DNA of 22,075 nucleotides from the NCBI GenBank assembly GCA_023666975.1, contig JAMPAW010000049.1:1-22075 (forward strand), written 5' to 3'. Both the position numbers and the translations under genes were made by a program. Every line of letters begins with the position of its first letter. Position 1 is the first letter of the stretch. The notes beneath the pieces were generated by a model. It had not been told where the DNA came from. It did not search any database and saw only the letters and a list, made by a program, of their open reading frames with translations. Of the stretch, positions 3,594-21,611 are shown piece by piece. Source of the stretch: Clostridium sp. (GTDB lineage Bacteria; Bacillota_A; Clostridia; Lachnospirales; Lachnospiraceae).

Positions 3594-3691
3594 ATCCATA
3601 ATCAATTCCCGCACTTCCATTCTTCACCCAGAACACAATATTTTTCAGTTGTATCAAACACTACATCACGAAAGCCGACTGCTTTATAATT
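3594..3691. repeat. Direct repeat, left copy (partner 4381-4477)
   Basis: About 98 bp repeated in the same orientation at 4381-4477, with a few mismatches and one 1-nt length difference. It corresponds to the 3' end of the GNAT gene and brackets the ORF6N relic. Recombination between the copies would remove about 790 bp. Confidence 0.9.
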
Positions 3692-3747
3692 ATAACAATT
3701 CCAGTTTTATCGAATGCAGTAAACGGCATTAGAGATTCAACAAAACA
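3594..3747 (-). pseudogene. Internally deleted duplicate of the GNAT acetyltransferase gene
   Basis: This stretch repeats two separate parts of the intact GNAT gene at 4372-4857. Positions 3594-3691 match 4381-4477 (the C-terminal coding end) almost base for base. Positions about 3699-3747 match about 4680-4729 (the coding part for FCFVESLMPFTAFDETGIV). Roughly 200 bp of the gene is missing between them, and the 5' third is absent. A few substitutions (Asp to Lys in TAFDKTG, for example) show that the copy is diverging. It faces the same way as the full gene and is separated from it by the ORF6N relic. No product is expected. Confidence 0.85.
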
Positions 3748-3812
3748 AAGAAGCAATAAATTATTTGTCGATTGAAGCCGAAACCGATTGACATAAAGCA
3801 ATGTACTGATGT

Positions 3813-4323
3813 AATATTTCTTTGAGGTCGCAAATTGCGACCTCAAATATAGAGTCAGAAAATGTTTCATCTAAAGGCGGTAGAAGATATTTACCATATG
3901 TGTTTACTGAACAGGGAATAGCAATGCTTTCGGCGATATTGCGAAGTGATGAAGCAATACAGATAAGCTTAAATATCATGAATACTTTTGTTAAGATGAG
4001 GAAATTCCTGGCAGAAAATGCGTTGTGTTTGAACGATTAAGCAGCTTGGAATTAAAACAACTGCAATATCAAAAGGAATCAAATGAAAAATTCGATAAAA
4101 TCTTTGCATATATTTCAGAACATGAAGAGGCAGATCATCATATATTTTTTGACGGTCAAATATATGATGCATTCAGTTTGTTGGTAAGTCTTATTCAAAA
4201 GGCTGAACAGTCGATAGTCCTGGTAGACAATTATGTTGATGTAGGCACATTGAACATCCTTGCAAAAAAACGAGAAGCGGTGGATGTAACGATATATACA
4301 GTAAGAAGAACAAGACTTGCTAC
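3813..4323 (+). pseudogene. ORF6N-domain (phage antirepressor-type) gene, broken
   Basis: Two adjacent + strand frames together give one recognisable ORF6N-type protein. The first part has LRSQIATSN, SSKGGRRYLPYVFTEQGIAM, then a helix ending FLAENAL. The second begins at about 4021 in another frame with VFERLSSLELKQLQYQ and continues through YISEHEEADHHIFFDGQIYDAF and VDNYVDVGTLNILAKK. A single frameshift near 4020 separates them. The N-terminal part of the ORF6N domain is missing before 3813, where stops appear, and the C-terminus is lost after about 4323, where sequence related to the GNAT gene's end begins. Family members are phage or mobile-element DNA-binding proteins of about 300 residues. 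This one is a relic. Confidence 0.85.
3821..3847. repeat. Perfect 27-bp palindrome inside the ORF6N relic
   Basis: Arms TTTGAGGTCGCAA (3821-3833) and TTGCGACCTCAAA (3835-3847) are exact reverse complements around a single A at 3834. It codes for the LRSQIATSN segment of the ORF6N protein. In RNA it would be a strong hairpin only if the loop opens; in DNA it is a dyad suited to a dimeric binding protein. Confidence 0.9.
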
Positions 4324-4371: not shown

Positions 4372-4857
4372 TTATATATTTTCCATAATCAATTCCCTGC
4401 ACTTCCATTCTTCACCCAGAACACAATATTTTTCAGTTGTATCAAACACTACATCACGAAAGCCGACTGCTTTATAACAGTAATACGCGGAAGGATTATT
4501 CTCAAAAACACCCAATGATGCTTTTTTTGCTCCATATATTTCAAATACAAATTTCAGCCCTAACCGGATCATAGCTTTTCCATAGCCTTTTCCTCTTTTT
4601 CGAGGATTTACAATAACAAATCCAAAGCGTAGCTCATCTAATGATTCATCAGGATTTCTTAGTGTAAAAAAGCCAACAATTCCGGTTTCATCAAATGCAG
4701 TAAACGGCATTAGAGATTCAACAAAACAAAATTCTTTTTGTGTGATAGGATAATTACCAAGTATACCTGCTGTCCATTGATAAAATGCTTTTTCATCCTG
4801 GCACCACGATAAAATCGTATCTACATCCGAAGCTCTATATGGTCTTATTCTAATCAT
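4372..4857 (-). CDS. GNAT family N-acetyltransferase
   Basis: A 161-residue GNAT enzyme that would transfer an acetyl group from acetyl-CoA to an amine; acceptor unknown. The start at 4857 is chosen for the GAGGGA ribosome site 5 nt upstream; a frame from 4905 adds 16 residues without one. It begins IRIRPYRASDVDTILSWC, the common N-terminus of the group. The acetyl-CoA pyrophosphate loop is present as PRKRGKGYGKAMI (about residues 93-105), and the C-terminal half has FENNPSAYYCYKAVGF, the usual motif B. It appears intact and resembles uncharacterised GNATs next to TA loci. A damaged copy lies 0.6 kb downstream on the same strand. Confidence 0.9.
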   Translation of the reverse strand: MIRIRPYRASDVDTILSWCQDEKAFYQWTAGILGNYPITQKEFCFVESLMPFTAFDETGIVGFFTLRNPDESLDELRFGFVIVNPRKRGKGYGKAMIRLGLKFVFEIYGAKKASLGVFENNPSAYYCYKAVGFRDVVFDTTEKYCVLGEEWKCRELIMENI

Positions 4858-5011
4858 ATGTGTCCCTCGCAAATCCTTATTATTGTTCCGTTCAAAATCA
4901 ATCATACTATTGCACTTTTACAGTAATATCAGAATCCTTGCGTACCCCTAAGGCCAATAATCATGAATATAGCCATAATGCAAAAGGCTACTCCTAAAAG
5001 TTAGAAATCTG

Positions 5012-5284
5012 TTAAAACAAATCCGAATGTGTTCCGGTACGGAATAGGAATAATTCAAGTGCATCTTGATGAATACGGTAAATAAGGAGCCAATCCGGTT
5101 CAACATGACACTCCCGAAATCCATTATAATTACCTGCTAATCCGTGGTCATGGTGCTTTTCATCTAACTTTTGTCCATTCGCTAATACATTAACAACATC
5201 CCGCAAACGCTCTATTTTGCAGCCACGCTTTCTTGCAAGTTTCAAATCCTTTTTAAATTGATTAGACGGAACAATTTTAAGCAT
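5012..5284 (-). CDS. yafQ: YafQ-family mRNA-interferase toxin
   Basis: Type II toxin of the YafQ/RelE fold, a ribosome-dependent endoribonuclease that cuts mRNA during translation. The 90-residue protein starts LKIVPSNQFKKDLKLARKRG and keeps the YafQ active-site set: DHGL His, the ECHVEPDW stretch with His, Asp and Trp, and the C-terminal RTGTHSDLF His and Phe. Start 5284 (ATGCTTAA) overlaps the antitoxin stop by 8 nt, the usual coupling; an upstream ATG at 5299 is possible. Full length with no lesions, so the toxin is predicted to be active and neutralised by the RelB protein encoded just before it. Confidence 0.93.
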   Translation of the reverse strand: MLKIVPSNQFKKDLKLARKRGCKIERLRDVVNVLANGQKLDEKHHDHGLAGNYNGFRECHVEPDWLLIYRIHQDALELFLFRTGTHSDLF

Positions 5285-5558
5285 CAGTAAATACCTCATC
5301 TAACACTTCGTCAAATGATTCGTAACGCTTGTAATTACCAGGATTCTTTTTCATTTCTTCATATTCATCTAAGGCAGCTTTTGTTTCTGCATTTGGTGCA
5401 GGACGTTTGATTTCAAACGGTATACCGTTATGATTGATAGCAGAACGCAAAAACATATTAATCGCAGAAGACATATTTAAGCCAAGATCATTAAAAAGAG
5501 TTTCTGCTTCCTGTTTTAATGCAGAATCTACACGCACATTAATATTTGTAGTAGCCAT
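5277..5558 (-). CDS. relB: RelB/DinJ-family antitoxin
   Basis: Antitoxin of the RelB/DinJ family: an N-terminal ribbon-helix-helix (TNINVRVDSALKQEAETLF, residues 4-22, then GLNMSSAINMFLRSAI) that binds the operator, and a C-terminal tail that wraps the YafQ-type toxin. The 93-residue length is normal. It is the first gene of the pair, and the toxin start lies within its last codons. A near-consensus promoter lies about 35 nt upstream and contains short inverted repeats, which fits autoregulation by the antitoxin-toxin complex. Confidence 0.93.
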   Translation of the reverse strand: MATTNINVRVDSALKQEAETLFNDLGLNMSSAINMFLRSAINHNGIPFEIKRPAPNAETKAALDEYEEMKKNPGNYKRYESFDEVLDEVFTDA

Positions 5559-7041: not shown

Positions 7042-7560
7042 TCATATAATTCTTGACAGGCTTCTCCCGTCAAACCGGTTTCCCCAGCCTTTATTCTCCT
7101 CTATGCGGAATCTCCTGAAAGCATCGATATCCGGCAGTGGTATCTGTTTTTTCGTCATATAATCAATCAATTTTGTGAGTTCATAAAAACTTTCTTGTCC
7201 GCAGCCCACTATCACGCTGTAGGAATGGCTGGCTCCGATAGCGTAGACAGCCGACATCACATCATCTATCTGCTCATCAATGTTCTGATATAATTGATAA
7301 AGATATTGAAACGTATCCTCATCCAAATATTCAAAATCGTGTTCTTCATATGACACAAATTCCAATAAATTTTCCGGGATCATTTCGGATATGATTCCAT
7401 TCCAATCATCTAAATATTCGATACTGGTAAAACTCCAGAGGGCTTCCAGTACGATTTTCCAATCCTGCACCCGGTAGCCCAAATGAAACAGGGTGTTTTC
7501 AAAACAGCAGATGCCATATGACACCCTACCCATTAATGAAATAGTTTTCAGTATTTCCAT
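7042..7560 (-). CDS. Unrecognised acidic protein, immunity-protein-like
   Basis: A 172-residue soluble acidic protein. The start at 7560 is set by GGGAGG at 7568-7573, 7 nt upstream; a TTG start two codons earlier is less likely. It has a helical N-terminus (SLMGRVSYGICCFENTLFHLG), an acidic middle (YEEHDFEYLDEDTFQYLYQLY) and a conserved-looking end (PLPDIDAFRRF, then GWGNRFDGRSLSRII). I associate this layout with small immunity proteins encoded beside polymorphic toxins, though no family name can be assigned with certainty. Its ribosome site abuts the stop of the truncated toxN-like frame, so it probably shares that transcript and could be read through from the repeat-RNA promoter. Confidence 0.65.
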   Translation of the reverse strand: MEILKTISLMGRVSYGICCFENTLFHLGYRVQDWKIVLEALWSFTSIEYLDDWNGIISEMIPENLLEFVSYEEHDFEYLDEDTFQYLYQLYQNIDEQIDDVMSAVYAIGASHSYSVIVGCGQESFYELTKLIDYMTKKQIPLPDIDAFRRFRIEENKGWGNRFDGRSLSRII

Positions 7561-7573
7561 TTCCAAGCCTCCC

Positions 7574-7690
7574 CTATCTGACTTTATCGCTTGTTAATTC
7601 TTCTTCCATATTACTCATAAGGTATTTGTCCTTTACCAAATCATAAAATTCATTTTTGATATGGTATGCGTATCCTTGTCTTATTTCCAT
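7574..7690 (-). pseudogene. ToxN-like type III toxin gene, internally deleted
   Basis: A 38-codon frame directly after the repeat RNA and its terminator, with an AGGAG ribosome site about 5-9 nt before the ATG. The first 26 residues (MEIRQGYAYHIKNEFYDLV, KDKYLMSN) look like the N-terminus of type III toxins of the ToxN/AbiQ/TenpN group as I recall them. The last 12 (MEEELTSDKVR) look like a C-terminal tail of such a protein. A full toxin is about 150-180 residues, so the middle, with the catalytic core, would be missing. If this reading is right, the toxin is dead and its RNA antitoxin is an orphan. Alternatively it could be an unrelated micro-gene. Nothing else in the gap before the next gene restores a longer frame. 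Confidence 0.6.
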
Positions 7691-7704
7691 GATTTCTCCT
7701 TATA

Positions 7705-7736
7705 AAAAATCCCCATCAAAACCGATGGGGATTTTT
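7705..7736 (-). terminator. Perfect intrinsic terminator between repeat RNA and toxN-like frame
   Basis: A 13-bp perfect stem (7705-7717 with 7724-7736) closes a 6-nt loop and on the - strand ends in a T-run. A leaky terminator placed between antitoxin repeats and toxin gene is the standard layout of type III toxin-antitoxin loci, where it sets the RNA-to-toxin ratio. Confidence 0.92.
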
Positions 7737-7886
7737 ACGAACTATACTACTTATATCCCACCTGTATAGCAAGTGGCAATCATTTACATACCGAATCATT
7801 TATACCCCACACCATCGGCAAGTGGCAAAATTACTTATTATGCTTCTTATACCCCGTTGCATAAAAACGGCAAACATTTACTTCTA
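7737..7886 (-). ncRNA. ToxI-like type III antitoxin RNA: three tandem pseudoknot repeats
   Basis: Three imperfect tandem units with conserved TATAYCCC at 7752, 7801 and 7848 and GGCAA at 7775, 7824 and 7869 (+ strand), a period of 45-49 nt. Each can fold as an H-type pseudoknot. Stem 1 pairs 7758-7761 with 7773-7776, 7807-7810 with 7822-7825, and 7854-7858 with 7866-7870 (CCAC/GTGG twice, then CCGTT/AACGG). Stem 2 pairs 7742-7747 with 7764-7769, 7789-7794 with 7815-7820, and 7838-7843 with 7859-7864. The stem-2 sequences differ completely between units but pairing is kept, including one G-U. This covariation argues for a selected RNA structure. In type III systems each unit is cut out by the toxin and binds it. 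The 3' boundary is the terminator; the 5' end is inferred from the promoter. Confidence 0.75.
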
Positions 7887-7892
7887 TATCAT

Positions 7893-7920
7893 AGTATAGC
7901 AGAATACCGGGAAAATGCAA
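7893..7920 (-). promoter_or_regulatory. Candidate promoter of the repeat RNA
   Basis: On the - strand, TTGCAT (7915-7920) and TATACT (7893-7898) lie 16 nt apart, placing initiation near 7886, just upstream of the first pseudoknot unit. From here to 8133 (about 210 nt) I see only AT-rich DNA. Confidence 0.5.
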
Positions 7921-8690: not shown

Positions 8691-9164
8691 CTAGTGTCCT
8701 AGCCCCTGCACAAACTCAGAGAACGTATTTGCCACTTTATATGTCACCGGTTCAAAATCTCCCGATTCCTCGTGGCTCCACACGCAGATACACGGTTTCC
8801 CCTGATCTTCCCGATAATCAAGGCATACATAATCTCCGGCAAATAATTCTGCAATCGGCAGTACCTCTATGCCAATTAAATCCTCATTATCCGTCAGCCG
8901 TTCTCCGATCTGGGATTCTACGGCACCAATATCATAAATACCATTCGGACTTTCCTGAACATTCTGCAAAATACACAAAAATCGCGTTATTGCATAGCTG
9001 CGGCTGCCACATTCAAATGATGCCTCATTTGGTATTCCGCCATTATACTTCATAATAAAATCCCTATAATCCGCAGGCAAAACCAGCCTCCATTTTCTCT
9101 CCTTCTCCGCCAGCAGTTCCACACTTGGCATCGGTTGAATAACCGTATTCTCCTGTATCGTCAT
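8691..9164 (-). CDS. SMI1/KNR4 (SUKH) family protein, probable immunity protein
   Basis: A 157-residue SMI1/KNR4-superfamily protein, the SUKH fold used widely as toxin-immunity protein in bacteria. The start at 9164 follows AGGAGG (9172-9177) by 7 nt; a longer frame from 9200 would place that site inside the gene. Marks of the fold are the early EKERKWRLVLPADYRDFIMKYNGG segment (family pattern L-P-x-x-Y-x-x-F-x-x-xNGG), the middle strand IGIEVLPIAELFAGDYVCLD, and the late FEPVTYKVANTFSEFVQGL. It would neutralise a nuclease or other toxin made by a neighbouring cell. No toxin gene is present in the window, so it would act as an orphan immunity gene. Confidence 0.9.
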   Translation of the reverse strand: MTIQENTVIQPMPSVELLAEKERKWRLVLPADYRDFIMKYNGGIPNEASFECGSRSYAITRFLCILQNVQESPNGIYDIGAVESQIGERLTDNEDLIGIEVLPIAELFAGDYVCLDYREDQGKPCICVWSHEESGDFEPVTYKVANTFSEFVQGLGH

Positions 9165-9346
9165 TTCGTATCCTCCTATCGTCATAAAGTATCTGCCCAC
9201 ATTCCAGCAGTTCTCCCACCGTTATGTCCTGCTATGTCTTTCGGTTGGCACCAACATCTTTTCGATAACCGGATGCCGCATTTCTTATATTAACAGCAAA
9301 ATTCCAAATAGTATAACAATATAACTGGCAACTGCTATCAAAAGCT

Positions 9347-14149: not shown

Positions 14150-14356
14150 TTATTTATAGAAATCCTCGTCAGTAATACGAAATGTTTCCAAGTATTCATC
14201 TATTAGGTCAAGATTTACAAGCACCATATGGTTCAATTTGTAACAAGCCCTTGCATCCTTTGCCAGTTCTTGAAACTTGGATAAACTCATTGAATACATT
14301 TCGGCACCTTCTGCATATCGTACAAATCGCTTTTCCCTCTTATTTCGCTCCCGCAT
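14150..14356 (-). CDS. Excisionase-like DUF6462 family protein
   Basis: A 68-residue basic protein with the winged-helix/MerR-like pattern of excisionase-type accessory proteins: MRERNKREKRFVRYAEGAEM, then YSMSLSKFQELAKDARACYK and a short wing, and an acidic tail (TFRITDEDFYK). The start at 14356 follows GGAGG by about 9 nt and overlaps the end of mazF by 17 nt; a longer frame from 14404 lacks a ribosome site. Proteins like this are found next to Tn916-type integrases and are assigned to DUF6462; a role in directing excision or in regulation is inferred from that, not shown. Confidence 0.8.
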   Translation of the reverse strand: MRERNKREKRFVRYAEGAEMYSMSLSKFQELAKDARACYKLNHMVLVNLDLIDEYLETFRITDEDFYK

Positions 14357-14774
14357 TTTGCATCTCCTCCAATACCATCTTTCTAGCAACGGGTAACAAA
14401 TCAAACTGCATTATCAATGCTCTGTCAATCTCTTCCCTGACTACTGAGTCTTTTGGAATATATCCGCTTTTACTTCTGATACATCCTTTAGCCAAAGTCT
14501 GTGCATCCTCTGGCATAAAATCCGACTGTTTTCTGAGATTGTATCCTCTTACATCAGAAGGATTAACAATCACATGTACCGGAATATCCTTCAACTTGCT
14601 ACTTAACGGAACAACTGATACCTGTGGAGCACCGGCATGATTTGATGCATCACAAGAAATAATGATACCAGGTCTTACTCCGCTTTCTACTCCGTGTGGG
14701 TTACTTCCAAAGTCCGCATACACAACATCAAATTTGTTATATTTCTTATAAACCTTCTTATTCTTCTCCTTCAT
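14340..14774 (-). CDS. mazF: PemK/MazF-family endoribonuclease toxin
   Basis: A 144-residue MazF-type toxin, a sequence-specific mRNA endonuclease. It has the start strand FDVVYADFG, the GVESGVRPGIIISCD segment with the family Arg34-Pro35, VSVVPLSSKLKDIPVHV (about residues 52-68), and the later QTLAKGCIRS and IDRALIMQF. It is somewhat longer than typical MazF (about 110-120) because of an N-terminal basic extension and a C-terminal helix. The start overlaps the previous gene by 17 nt. No ordinary MazE antitoxin (AbrB or RHH type) lies directly upstream; the adjacent gene encodes a resolvase-like protein without catalytic residues, so the antitoxin is uncertain. Confidence 0.9.
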   Translation of the reverse strand: MKEKNKKVYKKYNKFDVVYADFGSNPHGVESGVRPGIIISCDASNHAGAPQVSVVPLSSKLKDIPVHVIVNPSDVRGYNLRKQSDFMPEDAQTLAKGCIRSKSGYIPKDSVVREEIDRALIMQFDLLPVARKMVLEEMQNAGAK

Positions 14775-17780: not shown

Positions 17781-18797
17781 TCACAAAATATCACTATTTC
17801 TCAGCTCATGTATTTCATCCTGTAATTTCTCAAGAAATGCAAGTATATCCTCAAACTCTGGTATATTCCCATATATCATATTCCTCATTGCCTGATAGTC
17901 CTCCTGCAATGCACTGAGTACCGATTCTCTCGGTAAAAGCTCAATACTGCTCAAAGTTGCCGTTTCATAATGAGCACCCTTGGCATAATAAAACTTTTGC
18001 TTAAAAGCAACATCCTTTTCCAATAATTCTTTTCTATCAAATGCACTCTCTTTTACCCATGAATTACCCAGATTATAGACATCATATAAATGTCTTGCAT
18101 ATCTTGCAGGCAATGTTTTACCTTCCGGAAAATTTGCAATTTTATGTAATATAGTGAGTTTTTCCCAAAAAGTTCTCTCAACATCAATGGTCAGAACCGA
18201 TGTTTCTTTTTGCAAAAATATGTCCGGATATTTTTCCGCTGCAAATGGAGTTACTGTAGTCTCGTGAGATGGCATCCAGTCTGCCAATGGTCCAATTTCC
18301 AATCTTACACAGGAATGCAAATATTCTGCTTCAAATATCTGTGGATAATAAAAATTAACCGCCATCTCATCCTCTGTATCAACTGAAATCCATTCTCCAT
18401 CCCCCAGCTTTTCTTTCATTTCTAAATTCAACTGTGGAACCAATTCCTCTTTATAAAATTTTGCTGCTTCAGCGTTGATCTGCTTATTAAATATATTCTG
18501 CTTTGTTTTTGACCTTTCTTCCCAGGGATTTATCTCGTCATTAATAATTTTTCTCCAATCCAAAATTAAATCTATATCCTCAGAAAATCTTTCGATAACA
18601 TGGTACGATTTAGATAAACTTGTACCACCTTTGAAAACAAATGCATTCTTATACTTACAATCATGGAACAGATGGTCCAGCATAAAACACACCCAAAATT
18701 CTTTCTCTATTACATTGGGCTGCATTCCCATCGAAATTGCAGTAGCCTGAAACAATTCTGTTCTATCCTTTATCTGTAATTTAGCAACTTCTTTCAT
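17781..18797 (-). CDS. abiEii: AbiEii/AbiGii-family nucleotidyltransferase toxin
   Basis: A 338-residue type IV toxin/abortive-infection nucleotidyltransferase of the AbiEii family. Related enzymes transfer nucleotides to RNA (tRNA in the MenT/AbiE-like group) and arrest growth on phage infection. The catalytic nucleotidyltransferase motif is intact: FKGGTSLSK (Gly57-Lys63) and the acidic pair in FSEDIDLILDW (Asp74, Asp76). Later landmarks are VLTIDVERTFWEKLTILHKI and ARYARHLYDVYNL, the family's conserved helix. The gene starts at the antitoxin stop (TAATG, 1-nt overlap). Length is normal and no lesion is seen, so it is predicted to be functional. Confidence 0.93.
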   Translation of the reverse strand: MKEVAKLQIKDRTELFQATAISMGMQPNVIEKEFWVCFMLDHLFHDCKYKNAFVFKGGTSLSKSYHVIERFSEDIDLILDWRKIINDEINPWEERSKTKQNIFNKQINAEAAKFYKEELVPQLNLEMKEKLGDGEWISVDTEDEMAVNFYYPQIFEAEYLHSCVRLEIGPLADWMPSHETTVTPFAAEKYPDIFLQKETSVLTIDVERTFWEKLTILHKIANFPEGKTLPARYARHLYDVYNLGNSWVKESAFDRKELLEKDVAFKQKFYYAKGAHYETATLSSIELLPRESVLSALQEDYQAMRNMIYGNIPEFEDILAFLEKLQDEIHELRNSDIL

Positions 18798-19402
18798 TAT
18801 TCAGCACACACCTTTCTGATTACTGCATATATCCATTCGCTTACACCTGTTGCTTCCTCTAATATCTTTTTCTTCTCCGCTTCAGGCAATCTGTTTCTCA
18901 AACTCAAGATAATACCGTCATCAATCCGCTCTTTTCCCAACGTCTTTAATGCCTCAACAACCAAAGTGGTAGTCTCAGACATAAATGAAATCTCTCTGTT
19001 CGCACGGTGCTTAAAAGACAGTGTAATATTATCCCACGAAAATTTTCGATAAGGTCCGTCACTGATATAGGACCAAACAACCGGAACTTGTGTAGATAGT
19101 CCCAGCTTATTTAAGGCTACATCTCCGCATGGAGCAATAGTCCAATGAAAACTTCTGGCAATGGCATATGCTATCGCATCGGGATTTGCAGGAATATATT
19201 CTTTAAGTAACTTACTATATACAGGTTTTTCATACACTCCATTCATAATTCTTCGTATATTCTTTTCTTCAACTTGTCTTCCAAGACATTTTCTAACAGT
19301 TGTTGTTGTTGCAATATCTGTAAAATCTGATGTCAAAAATACCGTTCCCGGTTCGGCCATCTCTATTCTCTTCTTTATTTCTGTATATATGCCACTTGCC
19401 AT
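18797..19402 (-). CDS. abiEi: AbiEi-type antitoxin (DUF6088 family)
   Basis: A 201-residue antitoxin for AbiEii. The N-terminal winged-helix region (VFLTSDFTDIATTTTVRKCL, residues about 21-40, then GRQVEEKNIRRIMNGVYEKP) would bind the operator, and the C-terminal domain contains the antitoxin core (KEYIPANPDAIAYAIARSF, TTTLVVEALKTLG). AAGGAGAG precedes ATG 19402. Related antitoxins repress their own promoter through inverted repeats, and such a repeat is present at 19421-19452. Confidence 0.9.
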   Translation of the reverse strand: MASGIYTEIKKRIEMAEPGTVFLTSDFTDIATTTTVRKCLGRQVEEKNIRRIMNGVYEKPVYSKLLKEYIPANPDAIAYAIARSFHWTIAPCGDVALNKLGLSTQVPVVWSYISDGPYRKFSWDNITLSFKHRANREISFMSETTTLVVEALKTLGKERIDDGIILSLRNRLPEAEKKKILEEATGVSEWIYAVIRKVCAE

Positions 19403-20335: not shown

Positions 20336-20460
20336 CGAAACTTGATTGATACCAGATAAGGATAAAATTAGATATGTATGGGCATGATGTGGTAAAGTAA
20401 AATTGTAACACCGATACTGGAATAAATGATATAATTCAAATGAAAGTGAAGGTGAGAAAA

Positions 20461-20754
20461 ATGGCAAATACCAACAAACGTTATGAGCCTGAATTCAAAA
20501 AACAGATGGTTCGTCTTGTCTTAGAGGAGGGCAGAACCATCGCAAGCGTCAATAAAGAGTACCATTTAGGTGAAGGAACTGTCCGAAGCTGGATCAGGCA
20601 GTTTGAAGAAGAATGCGAAATGAATCCAGATGCAAACGAAAAGGGAGAACTTTATAAAGAAAATCTCCGGCTCCGCAAAAAACTGGAAGAAATGGAAAAA
20701 GAAAACCGTTTCCTAAAAAAAGCCACCGCATTCTTCGCAAGGGAAACCGATTAG
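20461..20754 (+). CDS. IS3-family transposase OrfA
   Basis: A 97-residue OrfA with an N-terminal helix-turn-helix (KRYEPEFKKQMVRLVLEEGR, then TIASVNKEYHLGEGTVRSWI) that binds the terminal repeats, and a C-terminal leucine-zipper-like coil (YKENLRLRKKLEEMEKENRF) for dimerisation. ATG 20461 is preceded by GAAGGTGAG. Near its end, seven A at 20715-20721 form the slippery run A_AAA_AAA, where a -1 frameshift would join it to OrfB. OrfA alone acts as a regulator; the fused OrfAB is the transposase. Confidence 0.92.
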   Translation: MANTNKRYEPEFKKQMVRLVLEEGRTIASVNKEYHLGEGTVRSWIRQFEEECEMNPDANEKGELYKENLRLRKKLEEMEKENRFLKKATAFFARETD

Positions 20755-21611
20755 ACCAATACCGATTTATTGACGAAAGCCACAAGGAATTTGGAGTCAG
20801 ATGGCTTCTTTGCAGATTCCATCTTTGCCCGAATGCCTACTACAATTATAAGAAGAACAGAAAAGCAGTTTATCTAAAAAACAAAGAAAAGAGCAAACAG
20901 GAAATATTAGATATCTATAACGAATATGACGGGCGTCCGGGATACCGAATGATGGTTATATTTTTAAAGAGGCGGGGAATCAGCCTGAGCAGAACCACCG
21001 TGCATAAGTATATGCGGGAACTAAAGCTTAAATCGGTTGTAATGCCTAAAAAGCCAAAATACCGCAAGGGAGAATGTTATAAAAAGTTTGATAATTTACT
21101 AAAACAGGATTTTACAGTATCAAGACCAAATGAAAAATGGTGCACGGATTTTACATATCTGCATTTGAAGGACGGGGCAAAAAGATATAACTGCAGCATC
21201 CTAGATTTGTATGATAAATCCGTCCTTGCAACCATGAACAGTAAAAGAATAGATGCAGAACTGGCCATTCTGACTCTACAGGCTGCACTTAATAATCAGC
21301 ATGTGCCGGAAGAACTCATACTGCATAGCGACCAGGGCTCCCAATACACCTCAAGGGCATTTACAGAATTTTGTGAGGAGAACCATATCACACAAAGCAT
21401 GAGTAAAGCAGGATGTCCCTATGATAATTCGCCGATGGAAAGCTTTTATGGAACATTTAAGGCGGAATTTGTACACCAAAACAGCTTTGAGAGCGACCGT
21501 GAGCTAAACAAACATACATTCGATTATGTATATGGTTATTATAATCACATACGTCCTCATTCATCAAATGGATATATGACACCATTTGAAAAAAGATATG
21601 CAAAGGAATGA
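20721..21611 (+). CDS. IS3-family transposase OrfB (DDE domain), made by -1 frameshift
   Basis: The frame runs open from the slippery run (SHRILRKGNRLDQYRFIDES) to 21611. The DDE integrase core is complete: first Asp in KWCTDFTYLHL, second Asp in ILHSDQGSQYTS, and Glu in SPMESFYGTFKAE, with the downstream Lys/Arg region (YNHIRPHSSNGYMTPFEKRY). The helical segment DGRPGYRMMVIFLKRRGISL is the HTH_21-type block. It has no convincing start of its own before 20949, so production as OrfAB by -1 frameshift is expected. Intact and probably active. Confidence 0.92.
   Translation, partial: SHRILRKGNRLDQYRFIDESHKEFGVRWLLCRFHLCPNAYYNYKKNRKAVYLKNKEKSKQEILDIYNEYDGRPGYRMMVIFLKRRGISLSRTTVHKYMRELKLKSVVMPKKPKYRKGECYKKFDNLLKQDFTVSRPNEKWCTDFTYLHLKDGAKRYNCSILDLYDKSVLATMNSKRIDAELAILTLQAALNNQHVPEELILHSDQGSQYTSRAFTEFCEENHITQSMSKAGCPYDNSPMESFYGTFKAEFVHQNSFESDRELNKHTFDYVYGYYNHIRPHSSNGYMTPFEKRYAKE

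Follow-up and report, generated by a model that had tools for sequence, protein, structure and literature searches.

The described type III toxin-antitoxin system closest to the locus reported here is CptIN of Eubacterium rectale (PDB 4rmo; NCBIfam NF047359), whose antitoxin RNA, CptI, is given in PMC4627078 as 45 nt long, with a one-base loop 1 and a loop 2 running from A27 to G35. For type II proteins, PMC7354431 discusses orphan antitoxins as well as anti-addiction, and PMC12548467 takes up anti-addiction in chromosomal systems generally, the antitoxin kept without its toxin being proposed in these sources to neutralise incoming toxins; an orphan protein antitoxin has also been named in Listeria (PMC7020466). 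Toxin-less ToxI-like RNA repeats, pseudo-ToxI, can suppress ToxN (PMC5086642). No title or abstract among those searched described an RNA antitoxin of type III standing as an orphan, although such loci may be mentioned in the type III survey PMC3401426. At the locus described here an antitoxin is likewise present with no functional toxin in the locus. Unlike the type II orphans, it is a structured RNA with a putative protective role, and unlike pseudo-ToxI, which is carried by phage, came from escape mutants and belongs to the ToxIN family, it is part of a decayed CptIN locus with a promoter-like block and a terminator.

We analysed 22,075 nt of Clostridium sp. (Lachnospiraceae; GCA_023666975.1, contig JAMPAW010000049.1), and this whole stretch is called the window. 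Between 7920 and 7574 on its minus strand lie, in order, a promoter-like block, three H-type pseudoknot units, a terminator, an AGGAG site and a 38-codon frame (L and G numbers denote loci and genomes used for comparison):

7893..7920, minus strand: promoter-like block, TTGCAT (7920-7915), 16 nt, TATACT (7898-7893); same block in relatives
7835..7881, minus strand: CptI unit 1, H-type pseudoknot (limits approximate); 91% identity to L041 unit 1
7788..7834, minus strand: CptI unit 2, H-type pseudoknot (limits approximate); 98% identity to L040 and L049 unit 2
7737..7787, minus strand: CptI unit 3, H-type pseudoknot with one-base loop 1 (limits approximate); 98% identity to L040 and L041 unit 3
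7705..7736, minus strand: terminator hairpin between array and toxin remnant; perfect 13-bp inverted repeat 7705-7717 / 7724-7736
7696..7700, minus strand: ribosome-binding site AGGAG, read from sequence
7574..7690, minus strand: CptN toxin remnant, 38 codons and stop; NF047359 match and comparison with L014

The three tandem units with interlocking stems, the perfect 13-bp terminator, the AGGAG site and the 38-codon frame were all found as the original prediction had claimed them, and its coordinates are correct. Unit starts are spaced 45 and 49 nt apart. Read on the minus strand, unit 1 pairs CCGTT (7870-7866) with AACGG (7858-7854) in stem 1 and TTATGC (7864-7859) with GCATAA (7843-7838) in stem 2; unit 2 pairs CCAC (7825-7822) with GTGG (7810-7807) and GCCGA (7819-7815) with TCGGT (7794-7790), the latter with one G-U; and unit 3 pairs CCACTT (7776-7771) with AGGTGG (7763-7758), again with one G-U, and CTATAC (7769-7764) with GTATAG (7747-7742). 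Loop 1 of unit 3 is a single base (G) and its loop 2 is 10 nt long and A-rich, which is the layout described for Eubacterium rectale CptI. The window has in common with CptIN units of about 45 nt, a one-base loop 1 (in unit 3), a long loop 2, and a terminator between RNA array and toxin gene, followed by a gene that begins as CptN. It differs in that the toxin is reduced to 38 codons without the active site, and in that the three units are unlike each other, each being conserved by position. A consensus promoter scan did not call TTGCAT-16-TATACT; the block is recognised by its recurrence in L040, L041 and L051, which have it in common, and in L052, where it is less exact.

The neighbouring genes of the window were also surveyed. 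Directly downstream of the remnant, a 174-aa protein is encoded at 7042-7566 (minus strand); in L001 a relative with 75% identity lies behind a YwqJ-like deaminase tail (PF14431, E 3.5e-7), which makes the 174-aa protein look like one conferring immunity to a polymorphic toxin. Further genes include a SUKH immunity-type gene (8691-9200), a YafQ/RelB pair (5012-5558), a PemK/MazF-like toxin gene (14340-14774) and an AbiEi/AbiEii pair (17781-19402). A Tn916-type integrase (PF02920, PF00589; 12616-13851) and an IS3-family transposase (20440-21611) make the right part of the window look like an integrated element. Two minus-strand frames, 3661-3870 and 4372-4905, have CFVESLMPFTAFD in common, a sign of partial gene duplication.

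The toxin remnant joins, in frame, 27 codons from the start of CptN (7690-7610) to a piece of its C-terminal end (7609-7577), and reads MEIRQGYAYHIKNEFYDLVKDKYLMSN followed by MEEELTSDKVR. A toxin reduced to its two ends had been predicted, and comparison with L014, whose CptN of 159 aa starts with MEIQQGYSYHIKDEFFDLVQDKYLMSN and ends in IMEEELGK, agrees with this, although the C-terminal match extends over five residues only (MEEEL). Exact MEEEL occurs within the last 30 residues of 16, and a like motif in 82, of the best 120 homologues among 460 proteins at E 1e-10. Against the first 27 residues of L014 CptN, 22 are kept and five codons are replacements, while the equivalents of residues 28-152 (about 125 codons) are absent from the frame. 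Since R4 and N13 of the remnant are present also in long homologues, not all of its changes postdate the death of the toxin. The CptIN toxin family NF047359 was the sole NCBIfam family on the remnant, aligning frame residues 6-30 to model positions 1-25 of 150 (E 1.5e-4) at a score of 21.6 bits that falls well short of the 90-bit cut-off, and a profile of window-type toxins matched the window at profile positions 1-30 only. A Pfam search of the frame gave no family, and peptide searches returned chance-level matches only from PDB, none from plasmids and two weak, unrelated-looking matches from phages. The active-site residues of CptN (a serine pair, Asp81, Ser85 and Tyr104; PMC4627078) fall within the missing stretch, so the remnant has no active site and should be inactive. 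Because a complete CptN endoribonuclease gene is absent, with only NF047359 positions 1-25 and a short C-terminal end in place, we class the locus as a decayed locus with a CptI array and not as a working CptIN system.

Full-length relatives were reached through the downstream 174-aa gene, which matched five genome contigs; one of the four genomes searched from those contigs held CptIN loci. Scanning 397 genomes of its family gave a CptN match at E 0.01 in 70 and one over the NF047359 cut-off in 55. We read 31 toxin loci; a stop interrupts both L017 and L027, and L028, as read, lacks a start codon. Direct repeats (22 or more of 30 bases matching at 45-48 nt) lie upstream of the toxin in 29 of them, and in L034 the upstream region is hidden by a run of N. 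By eye, L012 and L014 come closest to the window. The L014 toxin matches the solved CptN PDB 4rmo (E 8.6e-27, residues 5-144 on 4-142), and since it also lies well over the cut-off of NF047359 (E 9.3e-58), the toxin belongs to known CptIN and, for the toxin, the undescribed subfamily once suggested for this locus was rejected. Units stand 5' of intact CptN in the order seen in the window, three in L010 and L013 and two in L012 and L014, and are accompanied by a terminator and a full CptN; unit 3 of the window differs by 1 base in 42 from that of L040, whose toxin is open to the contig end. Together with the remnant's position on NF047359, these relatives uphold the predicted type III origin. 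Three findings had been named in advance as ones that would speak against it: homologous loci without a toxin gene, a frame aligning to an unrelated family, and a lack of covariation once more units are aligned. None of them came about, as homologous loci do carry the toxin gene, the frame aligns to CptN, and covariation persists in the larger alignment described below. As judged from sequence, the comparison shows that array, terminator and toxin start are homologous to those of intact CptIN loci, and the locus is almost certainly a CptIN locus that has decayed while its CptI array stayed whole. Searches of plasmid and phage DNA with the locus found none, as did searches of viral contigs with the neighbour gene or a CptN-start pattern.

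The idea that an intact toxin never stands without an array was rejected. L015 (G263), which is among the 31 toxin loci, is a rare but real case in which the CptN frame is complete but no array precedes it, only part of a terminator-like sequence being left upstream.

Structure of the units was assessed in an unedited MAFFT alignment (A1) that combines units of the window with those of 12 other loci, 28 in all, in 26 distinct rows. Excluded from it were L041:2084-2135 (a spurious pattern match) and L051 (cut by a contig end); L038 unit 2 and L050 unit 1 lie outside A1 and were included in unit typing, and the units of L080 and L081 are in neither. In A1, 99.0% of cells are paired as against 82.1% in shuffles, and the covariation score is 0.574 as against 0.277, values that none of 500 shuffles reached; sliding the partners by 1-3 columns lowered covariation to at most 0.136 and destroyed the signal. 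Cells changed on both sides number 47 versus 17.0 in shuffles, and no shuffle reached 47. Such changes fall in 6 of 8 pairs, a count reached by 98 of the 500 shuffles, and further pair types number 8, below the shuffles (10.1). A1 shows that both predicted pseudoknot stems are kept by compensating changes, and the claim that pairing is kept while sequence changes thus carries over to a larger alignment. Among 30 units typed, four have one unpaired position, in stem 2 of unit 1 in L040 and L046 and in stem 1 of unit 1 in L013 and L050. For distinct stem-2 pairs, own arms score 0.93 versus 0.62 for swapped arms in unit 1, and 1.00 versus 0.93 and 0.92 in units 2 and 3, where G-U pairs blur the difference; the 5' arm of unit 1 stem 2 pairs 6/6 with the 3' arm of unit 3 when G-U is used. 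Whole arrays recur in other genomes, and units that hold the same position in different loci show 82% agreement (129 pairs), versus 59% for different units within one locus (20 pairs). Unlikeness among the units, earlier taken as a sign of novelty, is therefore normal for this branch, whereas several other CptIN branches have near-identical units (30/30 bases match in L011, L016, L033 and L036).

Tests on the window alone do not decide the matter. A shuffle test whose fixed geometry passes over unit 2 gave two pseudoknots, as did 19 of 300 shuffles, and was set aside as too weak a test of chance; nested folding (z -1.62), which cannot see pseudoknots, was also set aside. It is the comparative test that decides for structure beyond chance. 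Rfam held no family at gathering score and gave weak matches only, at E up to 10.

How often the toxin is lost beside such arrays was read with R1, a covariance model trained on units of which some come from toxin-less loci, and run with strict filters that may lose weak matches; toxin status was judged over 1200 nt from the matched unit, with the profile of window-type toxins and by eye. R1 found arrays in 13 of the 397 family genomes, with the toxin complete in G092, G390, G175 and G226, cut by the contig end in G020, and broken or absent in G030, G035, G152, G153, G313, G353, G356 and G384. Among 383 genomes drawn from the order, 10 had matches, three of them already counted; the toxin is complete in G686 and broken or absent in G714 and G677, and the contig of G460 ends 240 nt beyond the array. 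G402 has an array with a complete toxin. With G603 and G501 (other CptIN branches) and G605 (E 0.009, probably chance) omitted, 18 window-type arrays elsewhere comprise 6 with a complete toxin, 10 with a broken or absent one and 2 cut by contig ends, a tally in which G092/G390 and G175/G226 are near-identical pairs and not independent, and which differs in branches and searches from the toxin-locus tally, so that the two are not a matched test. The genera of G020 and G153 contain only those genomes, and a second draw of 329 family genomes gave no new array genome. The visible lesions differ, with distinct deletions in the window, G153, G035, G384 and G714 and a broken frame in G152; several of the losses are therefore independent. 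The array-based search newly shows that toxin loss is recurrent and that the array is often retained. Later stages of decay are also seen, with one unit left in G353 and G384, units without terminator or toxin in G030, and units or the whole array lost too in L048, L049 and L052.

Two junctions seen among these loci may be recorded here. In L048 (G181) and L052 (G060) the promoter-like block is nearly directly joined to the terminator, the array being gone and the toxin shortened or absent. In L098 (G460) three whole units are followed at once by a long inverted repeat resembling an insertion sequence end.

Our best explanation, which we consider probable, is a CptIN type III locus of which the toxin half is dead and the RNA half whole. 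The toxin remnant (81 nt) has 11 window-only changes versus 4 L040-only changes with L012 or L014 as outgroup, or 2 with L010 or L013, and the array has 3 (outgroup L041), 1 (L010) or 0 (L013) window-only changes versus 8, 7 and 7 L040-only. For the three outgroup combinations tried, Fisher p for the contrast between remnant and array is 0.009, 0.002 and 0.045, on small counts; taken alone, the toxin side gives p 0.118 or 0.022 and the array side 0.070 or 0.227, most of them not significant. This contrast, limited by few changes, a single comparison lineage with a partly seen toxin (L040) and possible gene conversion, is what one would expect to see with a drifting remnant and an RNA held constant, and it fits that view weakly without proving it. 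Active retention of the array as an antidote may be proposed tentatively on these grounds. The array may instead be a neutral relic, the toxin having been lost not long ago and the RNA simply not having decayed yet, to which we give close to an even chance. Loss of the antitoxin first would poison the cell, an order that follows from how toxin-antitoxin pairs work, so loss of the toxin first needs no function of the surviving RNA; being expected without any use of the RNA, it counts against retention as an antidote. Relatives at later decay stages (G353, G384, G030, L048, L052) also agree with a relic, but the window array has changed less than the toxin remnant (Fisher p 0.002-0.045), and the stems are whole in all eight (ten minus two) typed units of the toxin-less loci L041, L043 and L047, which together with L081 (outside typing) are the other toxin-less loci with two to three full units and a terminator. 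On balance, a relic that is being lost is about as likely as an antidote array.

Promoter, array and leaky terminator might also have been kept as a borrowed leader that drives the downstream immunity-like gene for the 174-aa protein (7566-7042), which starts 8-14 nt past the remnant stop, the promoter scan calling none between the two on the minus strand. We regard this as improbable, however, as it leaves the conserved pseudoknot stems unexplained and other toxin-less loci have other downstream sequences. That the toxin deletion is an assembly misjoin would agree with the finding of no near-identical copy of the locus in the collections searched, but the two pieces meet in frame where ends of one and the same gene correspond, and other toxin lesions lie inside contigs in relatives, making an error of this kind very improbable.

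The locus would most likely make a terminated RNA of three CptI units, which would be expected to fold as CptI pseudoknots once transcribed. Lacking a toxin in cis, the array would not be processed into units; a CptN that arrived from outside should itself do the cutting, as CptN does with its own antitoxin, and the units could bind and inhibit a same-branch CptN brought by another element. CptN relatives occur on mobile DNA, in 5 of 72,556 plasmid records (each below 60% identity) and none of 50,697 phage records, and a viral contig (L096) carries a 46% identical toxin behind two units. The specificity of CptI is narrow, PMC4627078 reporting no non-cognate rescue from CptN toxins 35-44% identical, and this counts against an antidote role. 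Conceivably, these bacteria lost the toxin independently several times and have kept CptI arrays as a lasting type of RNA immunity to mobile elements that carry CptN and would addict or attack them, three position-specific units widening the range of CptN covered, although we consider this rather unlikely. The window and its relatives provide natural RNA orphan antitoxins with intact sister loci for comparison, where orphan antitoxins have otherwise been discussed for proteins; they allow a direct test of whether selection maintains a structured antitoxin RNA after the loss of its toxin, and they give a CptI branch whose units are conserved by position instead of being homogenised.
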